Source: a virus. Taken from it: a stretch of DNA of 21,154 bases. The stretch covers positions 1 through 21,154 of IMG/VR virus record IMGVR_UViG_3300008259_000716, one strand, 5' to 3'. Both the position numbers and the translations under genes were made by a program. Each line of letters begins with the position of its first letter. Position 1 is the first letter of the stretch. Of the stretch, positions 4,639 through 18,091 are shown piece by piece. The notes below the pieces were generated by a model. That model saw only the letters and a list, made by a program, of their open reading frames with translations, made no database searches and was not told where the DNA came from.

Positions 4639-6426
4639 ATGGCAAACTCATCTATTAATTTAATTGAATTAGATTTTCAAGGAATCAAATCCTCGCTGAA
4701 ATCTCACCTATCTAGCCAAGCTAAGTTTCAGGACTACGATTTTGATGGTTCGAATATGAGCGTGTTCTTAGATGTATTATCTTATAATACATATTTGAAT
4801 AGTTTTTATCTGAATATGGTTGCTAGTGAAATGTTTTTAGATTCAGCACAGCTTAGAGATAGTATAGTGTCTCATGCAAAAGAACTTAATTATCTACCGA
4901 GATCATTTAGGTCTGCTCAGGCTAATGTTAATATATCAATCACACCATCTACGAGTGTGTCATCGGTACTTATTCCATCTAAAACTTCATTTACATCTCG
5001 AATTGGTTCGAACACATTTAATTTTGTAACAAGAGATGCTATAGCTCTTACTGCGAGTAGTAATAATATTTTTTCTGCTACAAATATCACACTATATGAA
5101 GGTTCTTATGTTACAGAAAGTTTTATTAAAAATGATTCTATAACCAACCAAAGATTTTTACTTAACAATCAAAACATAGATACGACGAGTTTAGAAGTAG
5201 TTGTTTATGAAAACAGTGAAACAGATGTTTATAATTTTACTCAAGCATTTTCACTTTTTGGACTATCATCTAATACAAACAGTTTTTTCATTCAACCTGC
5301 TGAAAATGAACAATATGAAATAGTTTTTGGTGATAATATTTCTGGTAGAACCCCTCTTAATGGATCATTAATAGAAATATCATATAGAGTTTGTAACGGT
5401 GAACTACCTAATGGGTGTGACACATTTGTTAACAATTCTAGTATAGATGGACATTCTAATGTATCGATCACTGTTAACAAATCTGCTATAAGTGGTTCTG
5501 TGTCTGAAACTATTGAATCCATAAAGTTTAATGCTCCTAGAAGTCTACAGACACAAGAAAGAGCAGTAACAGAAAACGATTATGAAATTCTTTTATCTAG
5601 AGAGTTTACAGAAATAAGAGCTGTATCTGCATACGGTGGTGATAGAGAGAACCCTCCTCAATACGGAAAAGTTTATATTGCTGTTGATATTGAAGACTCC
5701 GACGGGGTTCCGGATATTAAAAAAACTCTATACAATAATTTTCTAAAAGATAAAGTACCTCTTGGAATAACAACAGAGATTACTTCTCCTGATTTCGTGT
5801 TTTTGAGAGTATTGTCTAATGTGTTCTTCAATAAAAATATAACATCCCAAACAACAGAGCAAATATCTACCAAGGTGAAAAACACTATCATCATCTTTAA
5901 TGATATATACCTTAACGACTTCAAATCCAAGTTTAGGTTTAGTAATTTTACTTCTGCTATAGACAACGCTGATTTGTCCATTATTAACAATGACACTACC
6001 GTTAATCCCTTTGTGTTACTCAGTTTAAAAACAAACACAAGTACAGATTTCAAATTCAATTTTAATACACCTATTTTAGAGACTACTCCAACTACCTCAT
6101 CTCATCCTTTAATAGTAGATAGAGGATTATTTTCAAGTTCATTTGTACAAAATGGATTGAACTGCCAACTAGAGGATGATGGTAAAGGAAATATTCGTGT
6201 AGTAAAAATAACCAATACGGAAATAGTAGAAGTATCTAAAATAGGTACAATAAACTATTCCACTGGAGAGATAATAATAACAAAATTATTAGTCGATAGT
6301 TTTACAGGTCCTGGAATAAAGATTTATATAAAACCAACCAGTCAAGATTATTTTTCTTCACAGAGAAACATATTGAAAATACAACCTGAAGATCTGATAA
6401 TTAACGTTACAGCGACAGAGATATGA
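4639..6426 (+). CDS. gp6: gp6 baseplate wedge protein (baseplate J-like)
   Basis: Main ring-forming wedge protein, whose dimers clamp into the iris around the hub. At 595 residues it is slightly shorter than T4 gp6 (660). The N-terminal region has the family pattern F-Q-D-Y-D-F-D-G-S-N-M, then L-S-Y-N-T-Y-L-N-S-F-Y-L-N-M and L-R-D-S-I-V-S-H-A-K-E-L-N-Y-L-P-R. The centre carries the baseplate-J signature: Y-E-I-V-F-G-D-N-I-S-G-R-T-P-L-N-G-S, I-S-Y-R-V-C-N-G, and an A-P-R-S-L-Q-T-Q-E-R-A-V-T-E-N-D-Y-E motif near residues 300-317. The C-terminal third is beta-rich and less conserved. It overlaps the next gene by ATGA. Confidence 0.93.
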   Translation: MANSSINLIELDFQGIKSSLKSHLSSQAKFQDYDFDGSNMSVFLDVLSYNTYLNSFYLNMVASEMFLDSAQLRDSIVSHAKELNYLPRSFRSAQANVNISITPSTSVSSVLIPSKTSFTSRIGSNTFNFVTRDAIALTASSNNIFSATNITLYEGSYVTESFIKNDSITNQRFLLNNQNIDTTSLEVVVYENSETDVYNFTQAFSLFGLSSNTNSFFIQPAENEQYEIVFGDNISGRTPLNGSLIEISYRVCNGELPNGCDTFVNNSSIDGHSNVSITVNKSAISGSVSETIESIKFNAPRSLQTQERAVTENDYEILLSREFTEIRAVSAYGGDRENPPQYGKVYIAVDIEDSDGVPDIKKTLYNNFLKDKVPLGITTEITSPDFVFLRVLSNVFFNKNITSQTTEQISTKVKNTIIIFNDIYLNDFKSKFRFSNFTSAIDNADLSIINNDTTVNPFVLLSLKTNTSTDFKFNFNTPILETTPTTSSHPLIVDRGLFSSSFVQNGLNCQLEDDGKGNIRVVKITNTEIVEVSKIGTINYSTGEIIITKLLVDSFTGPGIKIYIKPTSQDYFSSQRNILKIQPEDLIINVTATEI

Positions 6427-7025
6427 AACAGGTAGAAGACAATATTTCTTTACTGATAGAAAATCATTTTCCCAATTTTTACAAGGAATATGGAAACACG
6501 TTTATTGAGTTTGTTAAAGAGTATTACACTTGGACTCAACAAACTAACAATTCAATTTATTTTTCTAGAAACTTACTTGAGCATAGAGATATAGATAAAA
6601 CTCTAGAATCTTTCTTATATCATTATAAACTCAAATACCTAACTGGGATGCCTGTAAACGGAGTCTCTGATAGATTTAATATAAAACATTTTGGAGACTT
6701 TTACAAGACTAAGGGAACTGAGAGAGGAGTTAGTTTATTTTTGAAAAGAACATTTGATGCTAATGAAGTAGAAATATATGTTCCCAACAAAGATATTATA
6801 AAATCATCTGATGGTGAGTGGTATGTTCCAGTTTACCTAGAAATTTCTCAAACAATAAAAAATAAATCTTTTATTGGGAAATCTATAACAGGTTCTTCCT
6901 CAGGAGCAACGGCTATTGTCGAAGGTGTAGGTACTAAAGTAGTATCTGGAAAAGCTGTAGATATACTGTTTATTTCTAATATTCAAGGCTCCTGGAAGAG
7001 ATTTCTCAGTTGGAGATGTAGTTGA
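6423..7025 (+). CDS. gp7-position baseplate wedge protein, N-terminal part before a frameshift
   Basis: First 200 residues of a protein whose remainder continues in the +1 frame. The N-terminal region is a family common in marine T4-like phages: N-H-F-P-N-F-Y-K-E-Y-G, F-I-E-F-V-K-E-Y-Y-T-W, S-R-N-L-L-E-H-R-D-I-D-K-T, and D-F-Y-K-T-K-G-T-E-R-G-V-S-L-F. A beta module begins near residue 140. Homology-like sequence ends at about residue 190 (I-S-N-I-Q-G-S); the last ten residues (W-K-R-F and on) look like out-of-frame noise before TGA at 7023. Joined to the downstream frame the product would be 1008 residues, about the size of T4 gp7 (1032), and the order gp6, this gene, gp8 matches T4. The gp7 role is inferred from size and order, since marine gp7 is not well conserved. 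Confidence 0.7.
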   Translation: MKQVEDNISLLIENHFPNFYKEYGNTFIEFVKEYYTWTQQTNNSIYFSRNLLEHRDIDKTLESFLYHYKLKYLTGMPVNGVSDRFNIKHFGDFYKTKGTERGVSLFLKRTFDANEVEIYVPNKDIIKSSDGEWYVPVYLEISQTIKNKSFIGKSITGSSSGATAIVEGVGTKVVSGKAVDILFISNIQGSWKRFLSWRCS

Positions 7026-9450
7026 TATAATATCATCATCAAGAGGTAAGCAGGGTAAGGCGAGAATAGACTCCGTTGAATCCTCAACAGGTAAAATAAC
7101 TTTTACTTTATTGGATGGTGGTACGGGATACAGATTAGCTGCTAATGTGACGGTATCTGAAAAAATGCTACGGTTCACTAACAAAACCTTTTCAAATGTT
7201 TACATTAAAAACTTTTCATCTGGTGAAACTCTTTATCAACCTCTAGCTAATGTAGAATTCATTTCATCCAATACTAATTTTAGTATTGGTGATTCAATTA
7301 CGGCAGCTAACTCAACACAAAATGTGGCTACAGGAAGAATTGTTGGTAAATCTCAAGGAACTATTTCTGGTACCGCAACAGCTAACAGTACCTCTAATAC
7401 TGTTAATGGAACAAACACTTTATTTTCAATACAGCTATCAAATAACAGCTTTATAAAATTCCAAAGTAATAATTCCGTATTTCAAGTTAGTAACATAATA
7501 AGTAACACTATTCTCACACTGACAACCTTTGGGCCAGACGTAACGTCAAACTCTATGTTTCAGCCAAACGGAAGCTTTATGGTAATAGTCAATTCAGGCA
7601 ACTGGAACTCCGCTGATAGAATAGCTGGTTCTCAGGCACTTGTATCTAGTTTAACTAATGTTACTGCATCGGGAATTGTTCTTAGATCTAATAATGATAG
7701 TGTTGGATTAATAAATGTAGTAAATCAATTCACTGCAAATCAGTACAATTACATATACGGGTTGACATCTAATGTACATGCCAATGTTAGTATTGTTGGA
7801 ACTGGTACAGGAGCTACATTTACTATAGGAAGTTTGACAGATGAAGAAACTGTTTTTCTTAATACTGATTTGTTGAAATCCAATAATTCTATAGCAACAC
7901 TTACTATCAACGGTACAGTAACAAGTAACAACACAAATTCTCTTGTCACAGGAGTATCGACTTTGTTTACCACCGATCTTTATGAGGGTGCTTACATAAG
8001 ATTTGGAAGCAATACTACAGTATTCCAAGTCAATACTATCAGCAATAACACAATTTTGAATCTTAGAACAAATGCTATAAATGTTACATCTAATAGTATG
8101 GCATTAACAAGCGGGCCATACTTAACCACACCTCTAGATTCAGGTAAATATGGTTTTCCTCTAAATCAACAAGCAAATTTGGAGAGTACTATCAATAGTG
8201 CTCTAAATAAATCTTTTTTTGAAATAGGAACAATAGCCTCTCTTGCAAGTATTAATCCGGGATCTGATTATAATATTAATCCATTCGTAACACTCAACGA
8301 TGAAATTATTTCCAATTTCAATCGAAGAAATCTGAATATATCAATAAGCAATACTGTTGGAACATTTTTGGTTGGGGAGGAAATAACACAGGACTTTTCC
8401 ACTCCTTCTTTTACTTTGCAGACCTCAGGAACTACAGGATCTTTGAGTCTTGGAGAAACTTTGACACAGACTATTAATAGTACTGCTAATGGATATGGAT
8501 CTGTAGCGTCCTCAAATTCCACAATATCCGTAATAAATGTCTCAAACATATCTAACTCAACATTTGCAAATAGTTTCGTAAATTCTACTATATCTTCAGT
8601 GTTATCAGGAACAGTTTCATCTAACACCACTAATAATCAAGTTACTGGAGTAGGTACCCTGTTTTCTTCTGAACTAGCTAATGGAAATTTCATAAAATTT
8701 TCGAGCAATAGTTCTATTTTTAAAATTAACTCTATAACAAACAACACACTGATGACTCTCACAACAAACAGTGCTCTTATTGTTTCCAATAGTATTTTCA
8801 AGGCTTCTAATGTTGCTGTTTCAATAACTTCAAACAATTTTTTGTTTGTGAATAACTCAATCACTAACACCCAAATATCAATTTCAAGAGGCTCAATAAT
8901 AAACGCTACTTCAACAAGTTTAAGCGTGAGGAGGAAAACTTTCAATCAATCGTTTACACCAAATGTTTCTATTGTAGGTTCAATATCAGGAGCCACAGCA
9001 TCAGTCAATCGAGTCTCACAAATATCGAGATCATCTTTGATGGGAAACAATGCTACAGTTAACTCTTTTGCTGGAATTGTCAACGGTAGTATCTCAGCTC
9101 TAAGTGTCATAGATTCAGGATTCATGTATGAGGATGATGAAGAAATCACACTATCCAAAGCTAATAGTGCATTTGTTGCGACTGGTTATGCCAGAATATT
9201 AAACCAGGGAGTTGGTGAAGGATATTTTTTAAGTAATAGAGGATTTTTAAACAGTGATAAATATATTCACGATGGTGAATTTTACCAATTCTTTTCATAT
9301 CAAGTATCTTCTGGTATACCACTTGAAAAGTACGAGAACGCATTGAAAACAATTATGCACGTTGCAGGAACAAAACTTTTTGGAAAAGTTTTAAAGACTT
9401 CTAATGTAGATTTAACAATAAAAACCTCTGGTGTTGAAATAATTACATGA
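6994..9450 (+). CDS. gp7-position baseplate wedge protein, C-terminal part after a frameshift
   Basis: Continuation of the preceding gene in the +1 frame, open from 6961 to TGA at 9448-9450. Sensible protein starts at about 6994 (G-R-D-F-S-V-G-D-V-V-D-I), directly continuing the I-Q-G-S at the end of the first part; an internal ATG near 7111 is only a chance start. The roughly 818 residues are beta-rich and made of repeats. Three 53-residue copies of a G-T-V-x-S...V-T-G-x-x-T-L-F module lie at 7369-7527, 7912-8070 and 8608-8766, and G-E-x-L/I-x-Q modules lie between them. The last 130 residues are non-repetitive (Y-I-H-D-G-E-F-Y-Q-F-F-S-Y-Q-V, then L-K-T-I-M-H-V-A-G-T-K-L-F-G), a conserved-looking C-terminal domain. 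It overlaps gp8 by ATGA. Confidence 0.72.
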   Translation, partial: GRDFSVGDVVDIISSSRGKQGKARIDSVESSTGKITFTLLDGGTGYRLAANVTVSEKMLRFTNKTFSNVYIKNFSSGETLYQPLANVEFISSNTNFSIGDSITAANSTQNVATGRIVGKSQGTISGTATANSTSNTVNGTNTLFSIQLSNNSFIKFQSNNSVFQVSNIISNTILTLTTFGPDVTSNSMFQPNGSFMVIVNSGNWNSADRIAGSQALVSSLTNVTASGIVLRSNNDSVGLINVVNQFTANQYNYIYGLTSNVHANVSIVGTGTGATFTIGSLTDEETVFLNTDLLKSNNSIATLTINGTVTSNNTNSLVTGVSTLFTTDLYEGAYIRFGSNTTVFQVNTISNNTILNLRTNAINVTSNSMALTSGPYLTTPLDSGKYGFPLNQQANLESTINSALNKSFFEIGTIASLASINPGSDYNINPFVTLNDEIISNFNRRNLNISISNTVGTFLVGEEITQDFSTPSFTLQTSGTTGSLSLGETLTQTINSTANGYGSVASSNSTISVINVSNISNSTFANSFVNSTISSVLSGTVSSNTTNNQVTGVGTLFSSELANGNFIKFSSNSSIFKINSITNNTLMTLTTNSALIVSNSIFKASNVAVSITSNNFLFVNNSITNTQISISRGSIINATSTSLSVRRKTFNQSFTPNVSIVGSISGATASVNRVSQISRSSLMGNNATVNSFAGIVNGSISALSVIDSGFMYEDDEEITLSKANSAFVATGYARILNQGVGEGYFLSNRGFLNSDKYIHDGEFYQFFSYQVSSGIPLEKYENALKTIMHVAGTKLFGKVLKTSNVDLTIKTSGVEIIT

Positions 9451-11275: not shown

Positions 11276-14200
11276 ATGGCACTAGATACAGACTTCAACG
11301 TTTCACCGTACTACGATGATTTTGACGAACAAAAAAATTATCATAGAATACTTTTCAGACCAGCTGTGCCTATTCAAGCTAGGGAACTTACTCAGCTTCA
11401 ATCGATACTTCAAAATCAAGTGGAAAGATTTGGTGATAACATATACAGACAGGGTACTATTCTCAAGGGATGTAACCTCTCATTTGATTTTAATTTTACA
11501 TATGTTAAAATACTCGACTTGCAAGTTGATGGTATAACGACGCTTGTTTCTAGATATGCGAATACATATGTAAAAGACAGTGCTAATCTAACCTCTGAAG
11601 TAATTAATCAAGTACAGGGTCTGGAATCACAAAACCCTGATCTTTCTACATTGTTTTTGAAGTACATTAATACAGGTACTGGTAGCAAAAAGAAATATGC
11701 TAATTCTGATGTACTAACAATTTTTGCTAAAGACTACTCGTTACAAAGTATCACAATATCTGCTGCAGGTACACTGTATGACAATACTGATACGGTTGTA
11801 ATAACAGGTGGTAGTGGGTCTGGTGCTAATGCAAGTATTGTAACTTTTTCTAATGGATCTATAAAGGATGTGATTATTAATTCCGGTGGTTCAGGATACT
11901 TGACAGCTCCAAATATCAACATAACGTCAGCTACTGGCTCATCTGGAGCGCTTGTAGGTTTAAATTATATTGCTCAGGTTAGAGTTGCTAACTCATCATT
12001 CACAGCCCCCGTAGGTACTGGCTCTGCAGTTACAATAGGTGATGGCATCATCTATCAAAAAGGTCATTTTGTCAGGGTTGAAGAACAAACTACAATAATA
12101 AGCAAGTATAATAATAAACCAAGTAATGTCTCCCTTGGTTTTGTAACTTCAGAAAGTATTGTTAATAATAGTGTTGATTCAACACTACTTGACAACGCTC
12201 AAGGATACAGTAATTATACTGCTCCTGGATCTCATAGACTCAAACTCACTCCTACATTCGTTGCAATACCGAGTACAGAAGCTCAGAGTAATTTGGAGTT
12301 CTTTTCTATTCTGGAGTTTGATGAGGGTGTTATATCAAAAAGAAGAACAGCTACAGAATTCAACTCTGTATCTTCTGAACTTGCAAAAAGAACAAGAGAG
12401 GAGAGTGGTGATTATGTTGTGAAACCTTTCAGTATTTACACAGAAGAAAAAACAGGTAACACTACACATTTGAATTTGTCAGTTAGTGCAGGGGTTGGTT
12501 ATGTTAATGGATTCAGAACAGAAATATCTGGAACAGTGAGAGTACCTTTCAGAAAGGGTACTGACACATCTACAAGCAATAATCAAACTATAAGTACAAA
12601 CTATGGTAATTATGTAGTTGTAAATGAGCTTCTAGGTAATTTTGATTTTTCTACTGGCTCGACTATAAACCTCAGAAACACAGCAGCAACAGACTGTACT
12701 GATAATTTTGGTGGATCTCCTACTTCACCGGGATCTGTTATCGGTACAGCGAAACTTAGATCTATTTTGTACGAATCAGGAGATGTAGGAACTCCTTCGT
12801 GCAAGTACAGGTTATATTTATTTGCAATAAAAATGACACCAGGACAAACGTTTGCTGGAGTAAGATCAGTTAATATATCAGGTGGTGGTACAGCTGATGT
12901 CGTCCTAACTGAAGGTAAAGCGGTATTAAAAGAAACTGATAGTGATTCTCTGATTTTTACTTCAGGGGCAAATGCTGTTAGTTTTTTTACTAACGAACAA
13001 TTTATATACAGAAGAAATGATAATGTAACAATTCAAACAACTGGAATAGGAACTTTGTCTGTAACTGGATCTGAAGAATTTCCTTACACAATATCAAGTA
13101 CACTAAATGACACTCAAGAGCGAGATTTTATTGTAATTCCACAAGCCAATTCTTTCTCAACAGTTAACTTAACTGGAACAGTTAGTACATCTGGTAATGT
13201 TGTCACTGGAACATCAACAAACTTCCTTTCCGAACTTGATGTAGGTGATTACATTAAGTTATCTGGAAATGATGACTTTTTTAGAGTCAGTACTTTGGTA
13301 AGTTCAACATCGATGACTTTGAATGGTACGAGTGTTCCGACAGTATCTTCTAATACATTTTCTTATGCATTTCCTAAGAATGTACCCGTTAGATTGGATA
13401 GAGGTAGTGCTAATGTAAGTATTGACAGTAATGGAAATACAGCATTCTTATTTGTTGGTACTACTTTAAATAGTTCTACGACCTGTTCGGTTTACTATAA
13501 CTCAAAAGTAGACGGTGCTTCTGCAAAAACAAAAACGGTTACAAAAGACGTTTACGTAAAATTATCCACTGACAAGCTAGCTAGTACAACAGTAGGTCCA
13601 TGGTGTATTGGTATACCGGATGCTTTTAGAATTACAGGGGTATTTGTTGGATCAAGCAATACATACTCTAATACAACTACAAATTTTGCAAGTAGTTTTG
13701 AATTAATTACAGGACAAACTGATAACTTGTATGGTCTTTCATTCATTAAGAGAAAACCAGGAAGTACAGTATCTCTTTCAGCAACTAGTAACTTACTTGT
13801 CAGAGTTGATATTTTCACTCATGGATCAGGATACTATCTTTCAACTGAATCATACCCAGTAGATGATTCTACTGTACCTGTTCCTAGTAATAAAATTAGA
13901 ACTGAAAGCATACCTTACTTTTTATCACCAAGAAATAATAAATATTTTAATCTAAGAGATTGTATAGATTTTAGACCTATAGTTGCTAACACTGCAAACA
14001 CCAGTGCAACATCTGTAGCAGGAGCAACAGTTGACCCATCTTCAACAGAAACACTGACCGGAACTCTTTATTTTCCTACTCCCAACGAAGCTTTTGAAGC
14101 TGATGTAACTCACTTTTTAAGCAGAGTAGATGCAGTTGTTATGGATGCTTATGGAACCGTGTCTATAGTTGAGGGTAAACCCGATCTAACACCTGTACCA

Positions 14201-17200
14201 CCAAAAGCAACTGATAGTACAATGAAACTAGGTACTATTGTTGTCCCACCATATCCTACGCTATCTCCCAAAGCGGCTACACTATCAAAACGATTCGAAT
14301 ATAGCACATTGGTCAAAACTGATCAAACTAGAGGCTATACTATGAAGGATATCAAACAAATTGAAGATAGAATTAACAGGATAGAGTATTACTCTCTACT
14401 GAATACTCTTGAGAAAAGTGCCACTGATATTAACCTTCCTGGTGAAGCAAATACTGCAATATCTAGATTCAAGAATGGTTTTTTTGCAGATTCATTCTCT
14501 TCTTATGATATATCAAATGTAAGTGATCCAGAGTATCTAATTTACATCGATACCAAAACATCTACAGCAAGACCGCAGATAGAGAAGAATCGTGTAGAAC
14601 TAATAGCTAACACTAGTTTATCTAGTAATGTAACTTTTAAAGGAGAGTATGCTCTTTTGAACTATGATGAGGTAGAATTCATCAATCAGCCTATAGCTAA
14701 TAAAACAAGAAATCCTGTTCAGTTATATTGGAATTTTAAAGGTCAAGCAAAGTTATTTCCAAAATACGATGATTACTACGATGTTCAAAAGGGAAGTGTG
14801 AATGTAACAATAGACTTAGCGACTCCTTTAAATCAACTGACACAAGCAATTAACGATAATGTTCAGTTTAAGAAAGACTCAAAACAGATAACAACTACTG
14901 ATACTGGCTTTCAAAATACTGTTCCTCCAACTAGATCTTCAACAGGGGTCGATCAGAGAACAGTTACACAGACAACAACTACAGTCAGTAATTCCTTACA
15001 GCCAGGTGACACAATTACTAATGTACAGCCTGTTGGAGAGTTTTTAACTGACTTTGGTATGAAACCGTATATTAGAGCTCAGTGGATAACTGTTGTAGCT
15101 GTAGGATTGAGACCCGATTCTGAACATTATGTATTTTTCGATAAAGTTAATATGGCTCAGTATCTCAGACCTGCTACTGTGGAAGATATTGAAACAATGG
15201 ATACCCGTGGACTTGCTTTTGAACCAACAGCTAAGTTTACAGGACCTACCGGTAGTACTATAACAACTGATTCAAACGGTACCTTAATAGCTGCTATGTA
15301 TATTCCAGCGGAGACTTTTTTCGTAGGTGAAAGATCTGTTATTATTGCAGATAATCCAGATATCGATGATTTAGATTCATCTATTTCAGCAGCTTCAACT
15401 TCTTATAATGCTTACAATTTCTACAAAGATACATCGGCTCTGACAATTACAACCAAGTCACCTGGTCCAGTTAAAGCTGTATCCAATACGACAGTAGATG
15501 TCAAAAAGACTACTACAACTAGACTTGTTCCTCAATTGCCTACTCCTGCACCTAGATGCTGTTGTTTTGTACGCGGTACTCAAATCACTATGGCAGATGG
15601 GACTTACAAAAAAATTGAGGACGTATTGATAGGTGATTACTTACTTGGCCAAGATGGAGCGCACAATAAAGTTGTAGAGTTTTTAAGACCAACTCTTGGA
15701 GATACCGGATCCTCTTTGATGGCATTCAACGGTGGTAAGCCATTCATGACAAGCGATCATCCTGTCTATATTCGAGGAAAAGGATGGAAGTCATTTGATC
15801 CAGAAATGACTGTTACAAAATATAACATGGTAGTTGGTAAATACAAAATTGGTGATGTTATAGAAACTCAAGATGGCGTTGGTTTTGAAATAACAAGTAT
15901 ACAAGAATACTTGTCAGAAAATCAAGATCAATTAATTTATAATTTTAGACTAGATGGAAATCACACTTACATCGCTGATAATCTGATTGTACACAATAAG
16001 GATCCTATAGCACAGACGTTTCTCGTTAATCCAACCTCTGGTGCAGATGGTGTTTTTGTAACTAAATCACATTTATTCTTTAGAAACAATTCATCTATTG
16101 CTATAAGCAACAATGCTTCAGAACCAACAGTTGTTACGTTTGATACTCCTGTTTATTTGAAAGCTGGTAGGGAGTATGCTATTGTAGCGATTCCTGATAG
16201 GTCTAGTCCAGAATTTAAGATGTGGGTTGGTGAGATTGGTGTACCGGATGTGGCCAACAGCAGCTTAGTGTCTGCAATCAATCTGATTTCTGGATCTATG
16301 TTTCTATCACAAAATGATACTACGTGGACTCCATATCAGAGTGAAGACTTAAAGTTTAAAATATTTATTGCAAACTTTAACAAGACATCAGGTACAGTTG
16401 TACTAGAGAATAATCCTACAGAATTTTTAACTTTATCTAACACACAAGGATCATTTATTGAATCTGAAGAAGTAGCTCAAAAAGCTAATACATACTTATC
16501 TGGAACCTTCACCTGTAACACATCTAGTGCTATTGTGAATACCTCGACTTCGCAGACAGGGTCTCTTTCAGTAGGTCAATATGTTTTACTAACATTTGCA
16601 AATACAGCTGTATCAAGAACAGGTACTGTGTCTAACACTACTGCTGTTATTTTAACTGGTACTGGTACTTTGTTTACTACTGAATATGCGGCCGGAGATT
16701 ATCTACTTGTTGACAGTCAAATACGTCAAATAGAATCTATTGCAAACAATACTCAACTGACACTAGATGCCCCTCTAGGTTCCAGTGTAAGTGCTAATGC
16801 ACATTTTGGTGTTAGTGAAAAATTTCAAGTATCTAGAGTGAATGCAGCTAATACAACAACAATAACACTCAAGGACATACCTAAACATATAATGGATGGT
16901 GGAACTACAAATCATGGATCAGTTCAAAGAGTAGTAAGAGCTGTTGTAGAAAAAATCAATGATGACGACACTATTGTACTCAAAGACTCCACTGCTTCCA
17001 ATTCAACCTTCAGATTTGAAGCTACTAAACTGTTAGTTGGTGAAGACTCGCAGGCTACAGCAACTATTTCATCAGTTGATAATAGGAGTGTAAATTTCAC
17101 TGAATCTTATCTAAGATATATTACTCCTCCCTCAACATCTACAACTATAGTTCAAAAAATACTAGCAAATACAGGTAGTACTGCAGCTAATAGTGTAGTT

Positions 17201-18091
17201 CAAGAAGGAGTATCTAATCAAATCAGATATGATGCTCAAATTAAATCAAGAAGTAATGAAATTCTTACTGGTGAAAAATCTATTAAGGTTTTTGCTGATA
17301 TTACTAGAGCAAATACATTTAATACTATGTCGCCAGTAATAGACACTGTACCTGCTAGTATCGTTCTCTTAGAAAATGTTATCAACAATAGCAATGCTAA
17401 TGAAACAACAAGATATGGTAATTCTCAAGTTAGATATATTTCTAAAAATGTTGTTTTAACTGATGGTCTAGATGCTGAGGATATCAAGGTTTATATTACA
17501 GCATATAAACCTTCAACCTCTGAAATTTACGTTTATGCCAAAATATTATCATCTGATGATGATACTAAGTTTGATGAAAGAGATTGGACATTACTAAAAC
17601 AAATATCTCCTGCTGGTACTTATAGTGATTCTCTCAATGAAAAGAGCTTCATAGAGCTCGAATATACTTTTGAGCAAACACCACCTTCGACAAGAATTAG
17701 TGGTATTATTACTTCAAACAGTAACACTACAATTTCTGGTGTAGGTACTACATTCACTTCTTCACTTACAGCGGGGGATATTGTAAAAATAGTAGAGTCT
17801 AATACTCTTTCCGACTATGATATTTCAGTTGTAGACACTATTGCTAACAACACATCACTAGCGTTAAAGACATCCACCTCATTTTCTGGTTCAGGCACTC
17901 TTGAGAAAGTAACACAGCCTGGTGCTGCTTTTAAATATAATAGAGATGAGAATATAGTAAATTATTTTAATCCAGATACATCTTTGAATTCTACTTACAA
18001 GACGTTTGCTATTAAGGTAGTACTGACGTCATCTTCAAAGAGAAATGTTCCTCTGCTCAAAGATATAAGAGCATTGGCTGTTTCTGTGTGA
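11276..18091 (+). CDS. Giant DUF4815-type baseplate/fibre structural protein with internal Hint domain
   Basis: Virion structural protein of 2271 residues, in the position of the peripheral baseplate or fibre-attachment proteins of marine T4-like phages. The N-terminus is characteristic of the DUF4815 family: Y-H-R-I-L-F-R-P-A-V-P-I-Q-A-R-E-L-T-Q near residues 22-40, then F-G-D-N-I-Y-R-Q-G-T. A helical stretch starting T-M-K-D-I-K-Q-I-E-D-R-I-N at about 1022 is also typical. After residue 1574 come D-P-I-A-Q-T-F-L-V, G-V-F-V-T-K-S-H-L-F-F and F-D-T-P-V-Y-L-K-A-G-R-E-Y, conserved beta-sandwich elements of the family. Residues 1430-1574 are a Hint domain, annotated separately. Three copies of the module seen in the gp7-position protein lie at 13175-13321, 16622-16768 and 17702-17872. 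The molecular role in the virion is inferred, not known. Confidence 0.85.
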   Translation: MALDTDFNVSPYYDDFDEQKNYHRILFRPAVPIQARELTQLQSILQNQVERFGDNIYRQGTILKGCNLSFDFNFTYVKILDLQVDGITTLVSRYANTYVKDSANLTSEVINQVQGLESQNPDLSTLFLKYINTGTGSKKKYANSDVLTIFAKDYSLQSITISAAGTLYDNTDTVVITGGSGSGANASIVTFSNGSIKDVIINSGGSGYLTAPNINITSATGSSGALVGLNYIAQVRVANSSFTAPVGTGSAVTIGDGIIYQKGHFVRVEEQTTIISKYNNKPSNVSLGFVTSESIVNNSVDSTLLDNAQGYSNYTAPGSHRLKLTPTFVAIPSTEAQSNLEFFSILEFDEGVISKRRTATEFNSVSSELAKRTREESGDYVVKPFSIYTEEKTGNTTHLNLSVSAGVGYVNGFRTEISGTVRVPFRKGTDTSTSNNQTISTNYGNYVVVNELLGNFDFSTGSTINLRNTAATDCTDNFGGSPTSPGSVIGTAKLRSILYESGDVGTPSCKYRLYLFAIKMTPGQTFAGVRSVNISGGGTADVVLTEGKAVLKETDSDSLIFTSGANAVSFFTNEQFIYRRNDNVTIQTTGIGTLSVTGSEEFPYTISSTLNDTQERDFIVIPQANSFSTVNLTGTVSTSGNVVTGTSTNFLSELDVGDYIKLSGNDDFFRVSTLVSSTSMTLNGTSVPTVSSNTFSYAFPKNVPVRLDRGSANVSIDSNGNTAFLFVGTTLNSSTTCSVYYNSKVDGASAKTKTVTKDVYVKLSTDKLASTTVGPWCIGIPDAFRITGVFVGSSNTYSNTTTNFASSFELITGQTDNLYGLSFIKRKPGSTVSLSATSNLLVRVDIFTHGSGYYLSTESYPVDDSTVPVPSNKIRTESIPYFLSPRNNKYFNLRDCIDFRPIVANTANTSATSVAGATVDPSSTETLTGTLYFPTPNEAFEADVTHFLSRVDAVVMDAYGTVSIVEGKPDLTPVPPKATDSTMKLGTIVVPPYPTLSPKAATLSKRFEYSTLVKTDQTRGYTMKDIKQIEDRINRIEYYSLLNTLEKSATDINLPGEANTAISRFKNGFFADSFSSYDISNVSDPEYLIYIDTKTSTARPQIEKNRVELIANTSLSSNVTFKGEYALLNYDEVEFINQPIANKTRNPVQLYWNFKGQAKLFPKYDDYYDVQKGSVNVTIDLATPLNQLTQAINDNVQFKKDSKQITTTDTGFQNTVPPTRSSTGVDQRTVTQTTTTVSNSLQPGDTITNVQPVGEFLTDFGMKPYIRAQWITVVAVGLRPDSEHYVFFDKVNMAQYLRPATVEDIETMDTRGLAFEPTAKFTGPTGSTITTDSNGTLIAAMYIPAETFFVGERSVIIADNPDIDDLDSSISAASTSYNAYNFYKDTSALTITTKSPGPVKAVSNTTVDVKKTTTTRLVPQLPTPAPRCCCFVRGTQITMADGTYKKIEDVLIGDYLLGQDGAHNKVVEFLRPTLGDTGSSLMAFNGGKPFMTSDHPVYIRGKGWKSFDPEMTVTKYNMVVGKYKIGDVIETQDGVGFEITSIQEYLSENQDQLIYNFRLDGNHTYIADNLIVHNKDPIAQTFLVNPTSGADGVFVTKSHLFFRNNSSIAISNNASEPTVVTFDTPVYLKAGREYAIVAIPDRSSPEFKMWVGEIGVPDVANSSLVSAINLISGSMFLSQNDTTWTPYQSEDLKFKIFIANFNKTSGTVVLENNPTEFLTLSNTQGSFIESEEVAQKANTYLSGTFTCNTSSAIVNTSTSQTGSLSVGQYVLLTFANTAVSRTGTVSNTTAVILTGTGTLFTTEYAAGDYLLVDSQIRQIESIANNTQLTLDAPLGSSVSANAHFGVSEKFQVSRVNAANTTTITLKDIPKHIMDGGTTNHGSVQRVVRAVVEKINDDDTIVLKDSTASNSTFRFEATKLLVGEDSQATATISSVDNRSVNFTESYLRYITPPSTSTTIVQKILANTGSTAANSVVQEGVSNQIRYDAQIKSRSNEILTGEKSIKVFADITRANTFNTMSPVIDTVPASIVLLENVINNSNANETTRYGNSQVRYISKNVVLTDGLDAEDIKVYITAYKPSTSEIYVYAKILSSDDDTKFDERDWTLLKQISPAGTYSDSLNEKSFIELEYTFEQTPPSTRISGIITSNSNTTISGVGTTFTSSLTAGDIVKIVESNTLSDYDISVVDTIANNTSLALKTSTSFSGSGTLEKVTQPGAAFKYNRDENIVNYFNPDTSLNSTYKTFAIKVVLTSSSKRNVPLLKDIRALAVSV
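15563..15997 (+). other. Hint (intein/BIL-type) autoprocessing domain, residues 1430-1574
   Basis: This 145-residue segment interrupts the DUF4815-type protein and has the blocks of a minimal Hint domain. The N-terminal block starts at C1430: C-F-V-R-G-T-Q-I-T-M-A-D-G-T followed by K-K-I-E-D-V-L-I-G-D. The block-B motif T-x-x-H is T1492-S-D-H1495 in M-T-S-D-H-P-V-Y-I, followed by G-W-K-S-F-D-P. The C-terminal blocks are Y-N-F-R-L-D-G-N-H-T-Y-I-A-D-N-L-I-V-H-N, ending in H1573-N1574. There is no room for a homing endonuclease. The next residue is Lys1575, not the Cys, Ser or Thr required for protein splicing, so by sequence it resembles bacterial intein-like or polymorphic-toxin Hint domains that cleave rather than splice. 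Two further cysteines (1428, 1429) precede C1430. Block assignment is firm; activity is unproven. Confidence 0.92.

Follow-up and report, generated by a model that had tools for sequence, protein, structure and literature searches.

The window, a 21-kb virus record analysed over its whole length of 21,154 nucleotides, contains a T4-like baseplate gene cluster. The cluster encodes a tube cap, wedge and hub subunits, a PAAR protein, and gp25-, gp6-, gp7-, and gp8-like proteins (the gp names are our reading of PHROG matches), followed by an open reading frame of 2271 residues. An apparent frameshift breaks the gp7-like wedge gene, since phrog_17744 is matched by each of two stop-to-stop frames, one at 6405-7025 and the other at 6961-9450. 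The 2271-codon frame is uninterrupted, as the initial annotation had read it, and the segments of its product that are discussed below are as follows.

11276-18091, + strand: gene of the VrlC/DUF4815 baseplate protein, 2271 residues, host of the Hint module; a single stop-free frame matching PF16075, phrog_358, and PDB 9euf
11276-15478, + strand: N-terminal part of VrlC, residues 1-1401, the upstream flank; aligns to Hint-free homologues
15479-15562, + strand: proline-rich linker, residues 1402-1429, predicted to be disordered (pLDDT about 37-41) and hypervariable, ending in Cys-Cys directly 5' of the Hint module
15563-15997, + strand: Hint module, residues 1430-1574 (145 residues), lacking an endonuclease insert; identified by profile, fold, and conservation
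15563-15565, + strand: C1430, intein residue 1 (nucleophile of the N-S acyl shift), invariant in 108 of 108 modules
15749-15760, + strand: T1492-S-D-H1495, block B, whose His is invariant across all 87 aligned modules
15992-15997, + strand: H1573-N1574, the His-Asn pair that closes the module (Asn cyclisation), found without exception in the 108 modules
15998-16000, + strand: K1575, the +1 residue, a position occupied by Lys or Arg in 95 of the 108 modules and in every main context
16001-18088, + strand: C-terminal part of VrlC from D-P-I-A-Q-T-F, residues 1576-2271, the downstream flank; conserved in Hint-free homologues and a separate gene in phage DLP_6

The product of the frame matches PF16075 (DUF4815) with an E-value of 1.8e-58, phrog_358 with 1e-282, and the DUF4815 chain of PDB 9euf with 1.9e-44. 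Proteins of the phrog_358 type are annotated as VrlC in many phages. This homology and the neighbouring baseplate hub, wedge, and PAAR protein genes place the protein in the VrlC/DUF4815 family, and the earlier assignment of the host as a virion structural protein holds. A single AlphaFold2 model of residues 1240-1720 has an overall pLDDT of 65, which is too weak to position the Hint module relative to its neighbours; it has been used for the disordered linker, for the mostly well-folded residues 1240-1396, and for a weak match of the flanks to a cryo-EM entry of the phi812 baseplate, which ranks first in the fold search.

Residues 1430-1574 are confirmed to form a complete Hint domain, and a chance resemblance is excluded. 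The Hint blocks that had been recognised by eye, C1430, T-x-x-H at 1492-1495, and H1573-N1574, are correct to the base, and the combination of the Hint fold, a position 1 residue from the set Cys/Ser/Thr, and a block-B T-x-x-H (T1492-H1495) assigns the segment to the Hint superfamily. C1430 is directly preceded by two additional cysteines, C1428 and C1429. The Pfam profile Hom_end_hint matches the domain above the family cut-off (E 7e-12), and BIL domains are matched in a PDB profile search with E-values of 6e-21 to 8e-21. The AlphaFold2 model of the domain, calculated with 87 phage relatives, has a pLDDT of 91.5 and a pTM of 0.84, and shows the Hint fold. Foldseek ranks the BIL2 domain of Tetrahymena thermophila BUBL1 first (E 7e-10, TM-score 0.80 by target length), followed by the gp41-1 intein and the Clostridium thermocellum BIL; the probability given by the program for BIL domains and inteins is 1.00. 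PF14623 (Vint) has been rejected as a family name because its match by itself is below the cut-off, and the NCBIfam intein models give only sub-threshold matches. The Hog domain of Hedgehog proteins shares the Hint fold and, with part of the phage family, the C-terminal position; however, the window module ends in His-Asn and is matched weakly by the Pfam Hint module profile. Of the 87 phage Hint modules, 63 are also matched by the Pfam profile AXH (ataxin-1/HBP1 module), with a best E-value of 6e-21 (window 15563-15890), and ataxin-1 chains match the Hint domain in the PDB search. AXH and Hint look homologous; no paper linking AXH with inteins was found in the literature search.

The Hint module is inserted directly before the D-P-I-A-Q-T-F block, with K1575 as the only intervening residue. 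As had been proposed, the site is a domain boundary rather than an active site: the linker is predicted to be disordered and is hypervariable among homologues, with a mean pairwise identity among 80 homologues of 9.9% in the 40 residues upstream of the site versus 28.6% in the 40 residues downstream. Alignment has also yielded the alleles without the insert for which a search had been suggested. Homologues L103, L104, and L105 lack exactly the module that is present in L002 and L005, so that the empty allele L103 reads ...PQLPRGGGGGGKDPLAQTF where the window reads ...PQLPTPAPRCC, the Hint module, and KDPIAQTF. The Hint-free close relatives are 73-80% identical to the window in conserved parts. 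L103 shares 73% of residues with the window in the N part (residues 1-1380) and 66% in the C part, and the Hint-bearing L002 shares 73% and 63%. About 33 residues present in L002, L005, and L103-L105 (KDPSLGxTVQIR...NGYP...) are missing from the window just past DPIAQTF (16050-16110).

Fifteen close loci, which share 49% identity or more over a conserved segment, comprise seven with the Hint module and eight without it, although the independent counts are lower, since L304, L305, and L312 among the seven look like near-copies, as do pairs among the eight. In the full set of 80 loci, seven have the module, 48 are empty, and 25 do not cover the site. None of the 80 further VrlC homologues listed contains a Hint domain, a count that is not an estimate of frequency. 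The intact Hint-VrlC form is absent from cultured phages, whose Hint matches fall in genes other than VrlC. The patchy distribution fits a dispensable element, which counts against the reading preferred below. The module could be a relative of mini-inteins that is spread by recombination among virion genes and kept in linkers through self-removal, with nearly neutral effect and no function for the phage; we regard such a self-splicing passenger as rather unlikely, because the module carries no homing endonuclease and its site lies outside conserved motifs. The pN/pS ratio between the window and L002 is 0.24 in the module versus 0.25 in the host protein, with synonymous sites near saturation; selection on the module matches that on its host, in favour of the self-processing reading. 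The GC content of the module, 0.356, is like that of its flanks (0.36 and 0.349), and composition gives no sign of a recent foreign origin.

In inteins and related domains, the Cys at position 1 and the block-B His bring about an N-S acyl shift, and the terminal His-Asn enables Asn cyclisation. The window module has these residues; however, it is followed by Lys. Without a nucleophile at the +1 position the branched-ester route is closed, and the standard intein mechanism is therefore excluded. The module is not a canonical (class 1) intein, because K1575, like the 69 Lys and 26 Arg among 108 family members, is not Cys, Ser, or Thr, and because the insertion site is not a conserved essential motif. 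The Cys at position 1 rules out class 3. The inteins of phage helicases, terminases, and polymerases, which account for most Hint matches in cultured phages, share the fold and the catalytic blocks with the window module. By contrast, they reside mostly in replication and packaging enzymes, whereas the window module has Lys at +1, is positioned in a variable linker, and lacks an endonuclease. The PT-HINT domains of polymorphic toxins, whose profile matches 64 of 87 phage modules, likewise precede a C-terminal part; however, the segment downstream of the window module is VrlC's own DPIAQTF domain, common to Hint-free VrlC proteins, and not a toxin, for which reason a polymorphic toxin has been rejected. 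HINT domains have been reported never to occur with T6SS or PVC systems, whose neighbourhoods hold genes related to phage tails and baseplates (Zhang et al., PMC3482391).

The known domains that resemble the module best are the type A BILs of C. thermocellum (PDB 2lwy) and Tetrahymena (BUBL1 BIL2, PDB 6tmm and 6y75). They share with it the Hint fold, C1, the block-B His, the terminal His-Asn, a +1 residue that is not Cys, Ser, or Thr, the lack of an endonuclease, and the position between folded domains; the HN-K end and the location in a variable inter-domain region conform to this class. The phage modules differ from type A BILs in being hosted by baseplate and tail proteins, in the nearly fixed Lys or Arg at +1, in tandem arrays with single-residue spacers, and in proteins that end at HNK. 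The analysis has shown the fold, the catalytic residues, the exact insertion with its empty alleles, the tandem arrays, and a family common to unrelated virion proteins; on these grounds it is probable that residues 1430-1574 are a type A BIL-like self-processing module, and that VrlC is a self-cleaving or self-ligating precursor. The degrees of confidence expressed for this and the competing readings overlap and do not sum to one. The module is inserted in frame just before K1575, where the linker predicted to be disordered separates one half of VrlC from the other. After folding, C1430 would form a thioester with residue 1429, and cyclisation of N1574 would break the bond before K1575. VrlC would then end up as two chains, 1-1429 and 1575-2271, or, if the free amine of K1575 attacked the thioester, as a re-joined protein shorter by 145 residues. 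In either case it would be synthesised as a precursor that matures by autocatalysis. Splicing by amine attack is open to type A BILs, although cleavage predominates in them (PMC4031507).

Profile searches of viral contigs have identified 254 relatives, 80 loci of which were read. C1 and the terminal HN are present in all of 108 distinct full phage modules. An alignment of 87 non-redundant modules shows five columns without variation, namely C1, F2, the block-B His, the penultimate His, and the terminal Asn. These amount to the catalytic set, while much of the rest varies. The Hint fold might have been retained as a rigid spacer without chemistry, to which the tandem rows, resembling beads in a fibre, and the loss of the block-B His in DLP_6-type relatives would correspond; however, the invariant columns of the family are the catalytic residues, amid much variation elsewhere, and a spacer would give no reason to expect HN to be fixed. 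We consider an inactive decoration very improbable. The +1 residue is Lys or Arg in 31 of 32 modules that precede another Hint domain and in 17 of 17 that precede DPxxQxF. Fifteen modules close the open reading frame exactly at HNK, with Lys at +1 in each.

The host proteins include VrlC in many contigs, a glycine-rich tail-fibre protein (L004), central tail-fibre J-like proteins (L059), and a family marked by the motif KGTLFSADF; in several of them the upstream tails are rich in Cys and Gly. Modules occur in tandem rows of four (L024 and L311), four plus a partial one (L025), three (L028), and three intact plus one broken by a frameshift (L003). Neighbouring modules are separated by just one Lys or by a few residues, and arrays of up to four modules stay in frame within open reading frames of 2400-3022 residues. 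In a maximum-likelihood tree, both modules of the L004 fibre and that of L023 nest within the VrlC clade of the window with support of 100/99, which indicates that modules have moved between unrelated virion proteins. The tree requires 28 changes of host class versus 44.5 in shuffles, a count in which some truncated VrlC loci are labelled as other. Patchy presence and this transfer, which involved a tail-fibre protein with an S74-like domain, speak for a near-neutral self-excising passenger, which tandem duplication would also suit. However, proteins that end at HNK keep the catalytic residues though splicing there has no C-terminal flank, and in each of 20 viral contigs of up to 276 kb Hint modules are restricted to one gene, save for a few weak extra matches in one contig.

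VrlC can also be encoded in two pieces. Stenotrophomonas phage DLP_6, which is in culture, has a VrlC gene whose 3' end encodes a glycine run and a Hint-like domain that has kept C1 and HN but lost the block-B His, and the next gene begins at the equivalent of KDPIAQTF. Four more sequences of this form have been aligned, three from Xanthomonas and Erwinia phages and one from a second DLP_6 copy, and profile-profile comparison relates the DLP_6-type domain to the Hint family with a probability of 95%, in a match that covers what follows the first block. Caulobacter phage Cr30 likewise divides VrlC between two genes, about 130 residues upstream of DPxxQTF, without a Hint domain. Judging from these gene splits, a two-chain VrlC is viable. 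It is a realistic possibility that the module only cleaves, acting as a maturation switch that cuts VrlC in two, or releases the upstream protein, and never re-joins it, with the HNK end as the remnant of C-terminal cleavage. The hypervariable linker needs no traceless joining, the products of type A BILs are mainly those of cleavage, and where a protein ends at HNK nothing is left to ligate. Splicing cannot take place at such ends, and re-ligation is therefore not the sole outcome of the family. However, cleavage alone does not need a conserved Lys or Arg at +1, and leaves the arrays of consecutive modules unexplained.

The conserved +1 Lys, retained even at protein ends, could instead indicate that the C1 thioester is passed to a lysine side chain, and that an isopeptide links the upstream part of the baseplate or fibre to itself or to a neighbour. 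BUBL1 BIL2, the closest solved fold, has been reported to form a lysine isopeptide (PMC8616854), and the Cys- and Gly-rich upstream tails would be compatible with such a reaction. However, the acceptor lysine of BIL2 is in a downstream domain and is not stated to be at +1 (PMC8616854), and Arg, which cannot form an isopeptide, occupies +1 in 26 of 108 modules, so that the +1 residue is not an obligate nucleophile. We regard ligation to lysine as improbable. It is comparably speculative that Hint modules ending in HN-K/R are lysine-directed transpeptidases of phages, which would form a thioester where a baseplate or fibre segment ends and, with no need for ATP, ligate that segment to an amine of the same or a neighbouring virion protein or of the host surface. 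If so, tails would be covalently welded, and the length of a tandem row would determine how many reactive units there are.

The earlier proposal of a structural or maturation role rather than simple parasitism is favoured by the missing endonuclease, the +1 Lys, the invariant residues, the arrays, and the HNK ends; the autoprocessing reactions of VrlC, their balance, and any benefit to the phage are the part that we infer. To our knowledge, self-processing in phage tails is represented mainly by Peptidase_S74 chaperones and dedicated proteases. The S74 tail-fibre chaperones resemble the Hint modules in autoprocessing inside phage tail proteins, which is predicted for the latter, but differ in fold and chemistry. 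Hint, BIL, and intein domains and VrlC are all known already; however, in searching the open-access literature we came across no description of a Hint domain in VrlC or any baseplate protein, of Hint modules in tandem with single-Lys spacers, or of an HN-K/R family among tail proteins. The family suggests that in some phages components of the tail are produced in precursor form and then cut or re-join themselves. Its presence in unrelated tail proteins and in tandem, with catalytic residues kept in the absence of a C-terminal partner, would add a distinct chemistry of virion maturation. The presence and absence alleles in near relatives, together with the natural split of DLP_6, make passenger, cutter, and ligase directly testable against each other, and BIL-like chemistry with a charged +1 residue may serve protein ligation.

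In L004, the second Hint module adjoins an S74-like domain (HNK followed by SDARLK; 8975-8995), whose match is slightly below the cut-off. If S74 cleavage takes place in front of the Ser of that domain, HNK would be the end of the mature fibre as well. The tail tape measure protein of Ruegeria phage DSS3-P1 (L100, 4001-4500) has a Hint-like domain that ends in HN-T, apparently an intein within a further virion protein. A gene near the baseplate hub gene of Achromobacter phage 2-1 (L098, 4083-5525) contains a Hint domain that is preceded by Cys (CNCDCNCSCFPAGT) and has no terminal HN. Searches of bacterial and archaeal genomes matched 92 domains, 37 of them with the HN-K/R form, which therefore extends beyond phages. 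Many of these lie at the C-terminus of Bacteroidetes proteins or close to it, several of the proteins also having RHS or FGE-sulfatase/Lcl_C domains, and the proteins of Bacteroidetes contigs L231, L236, L244, L249, L259, and L265 end at, or a few residues past, the HNK of a C-terminal Hint domain.
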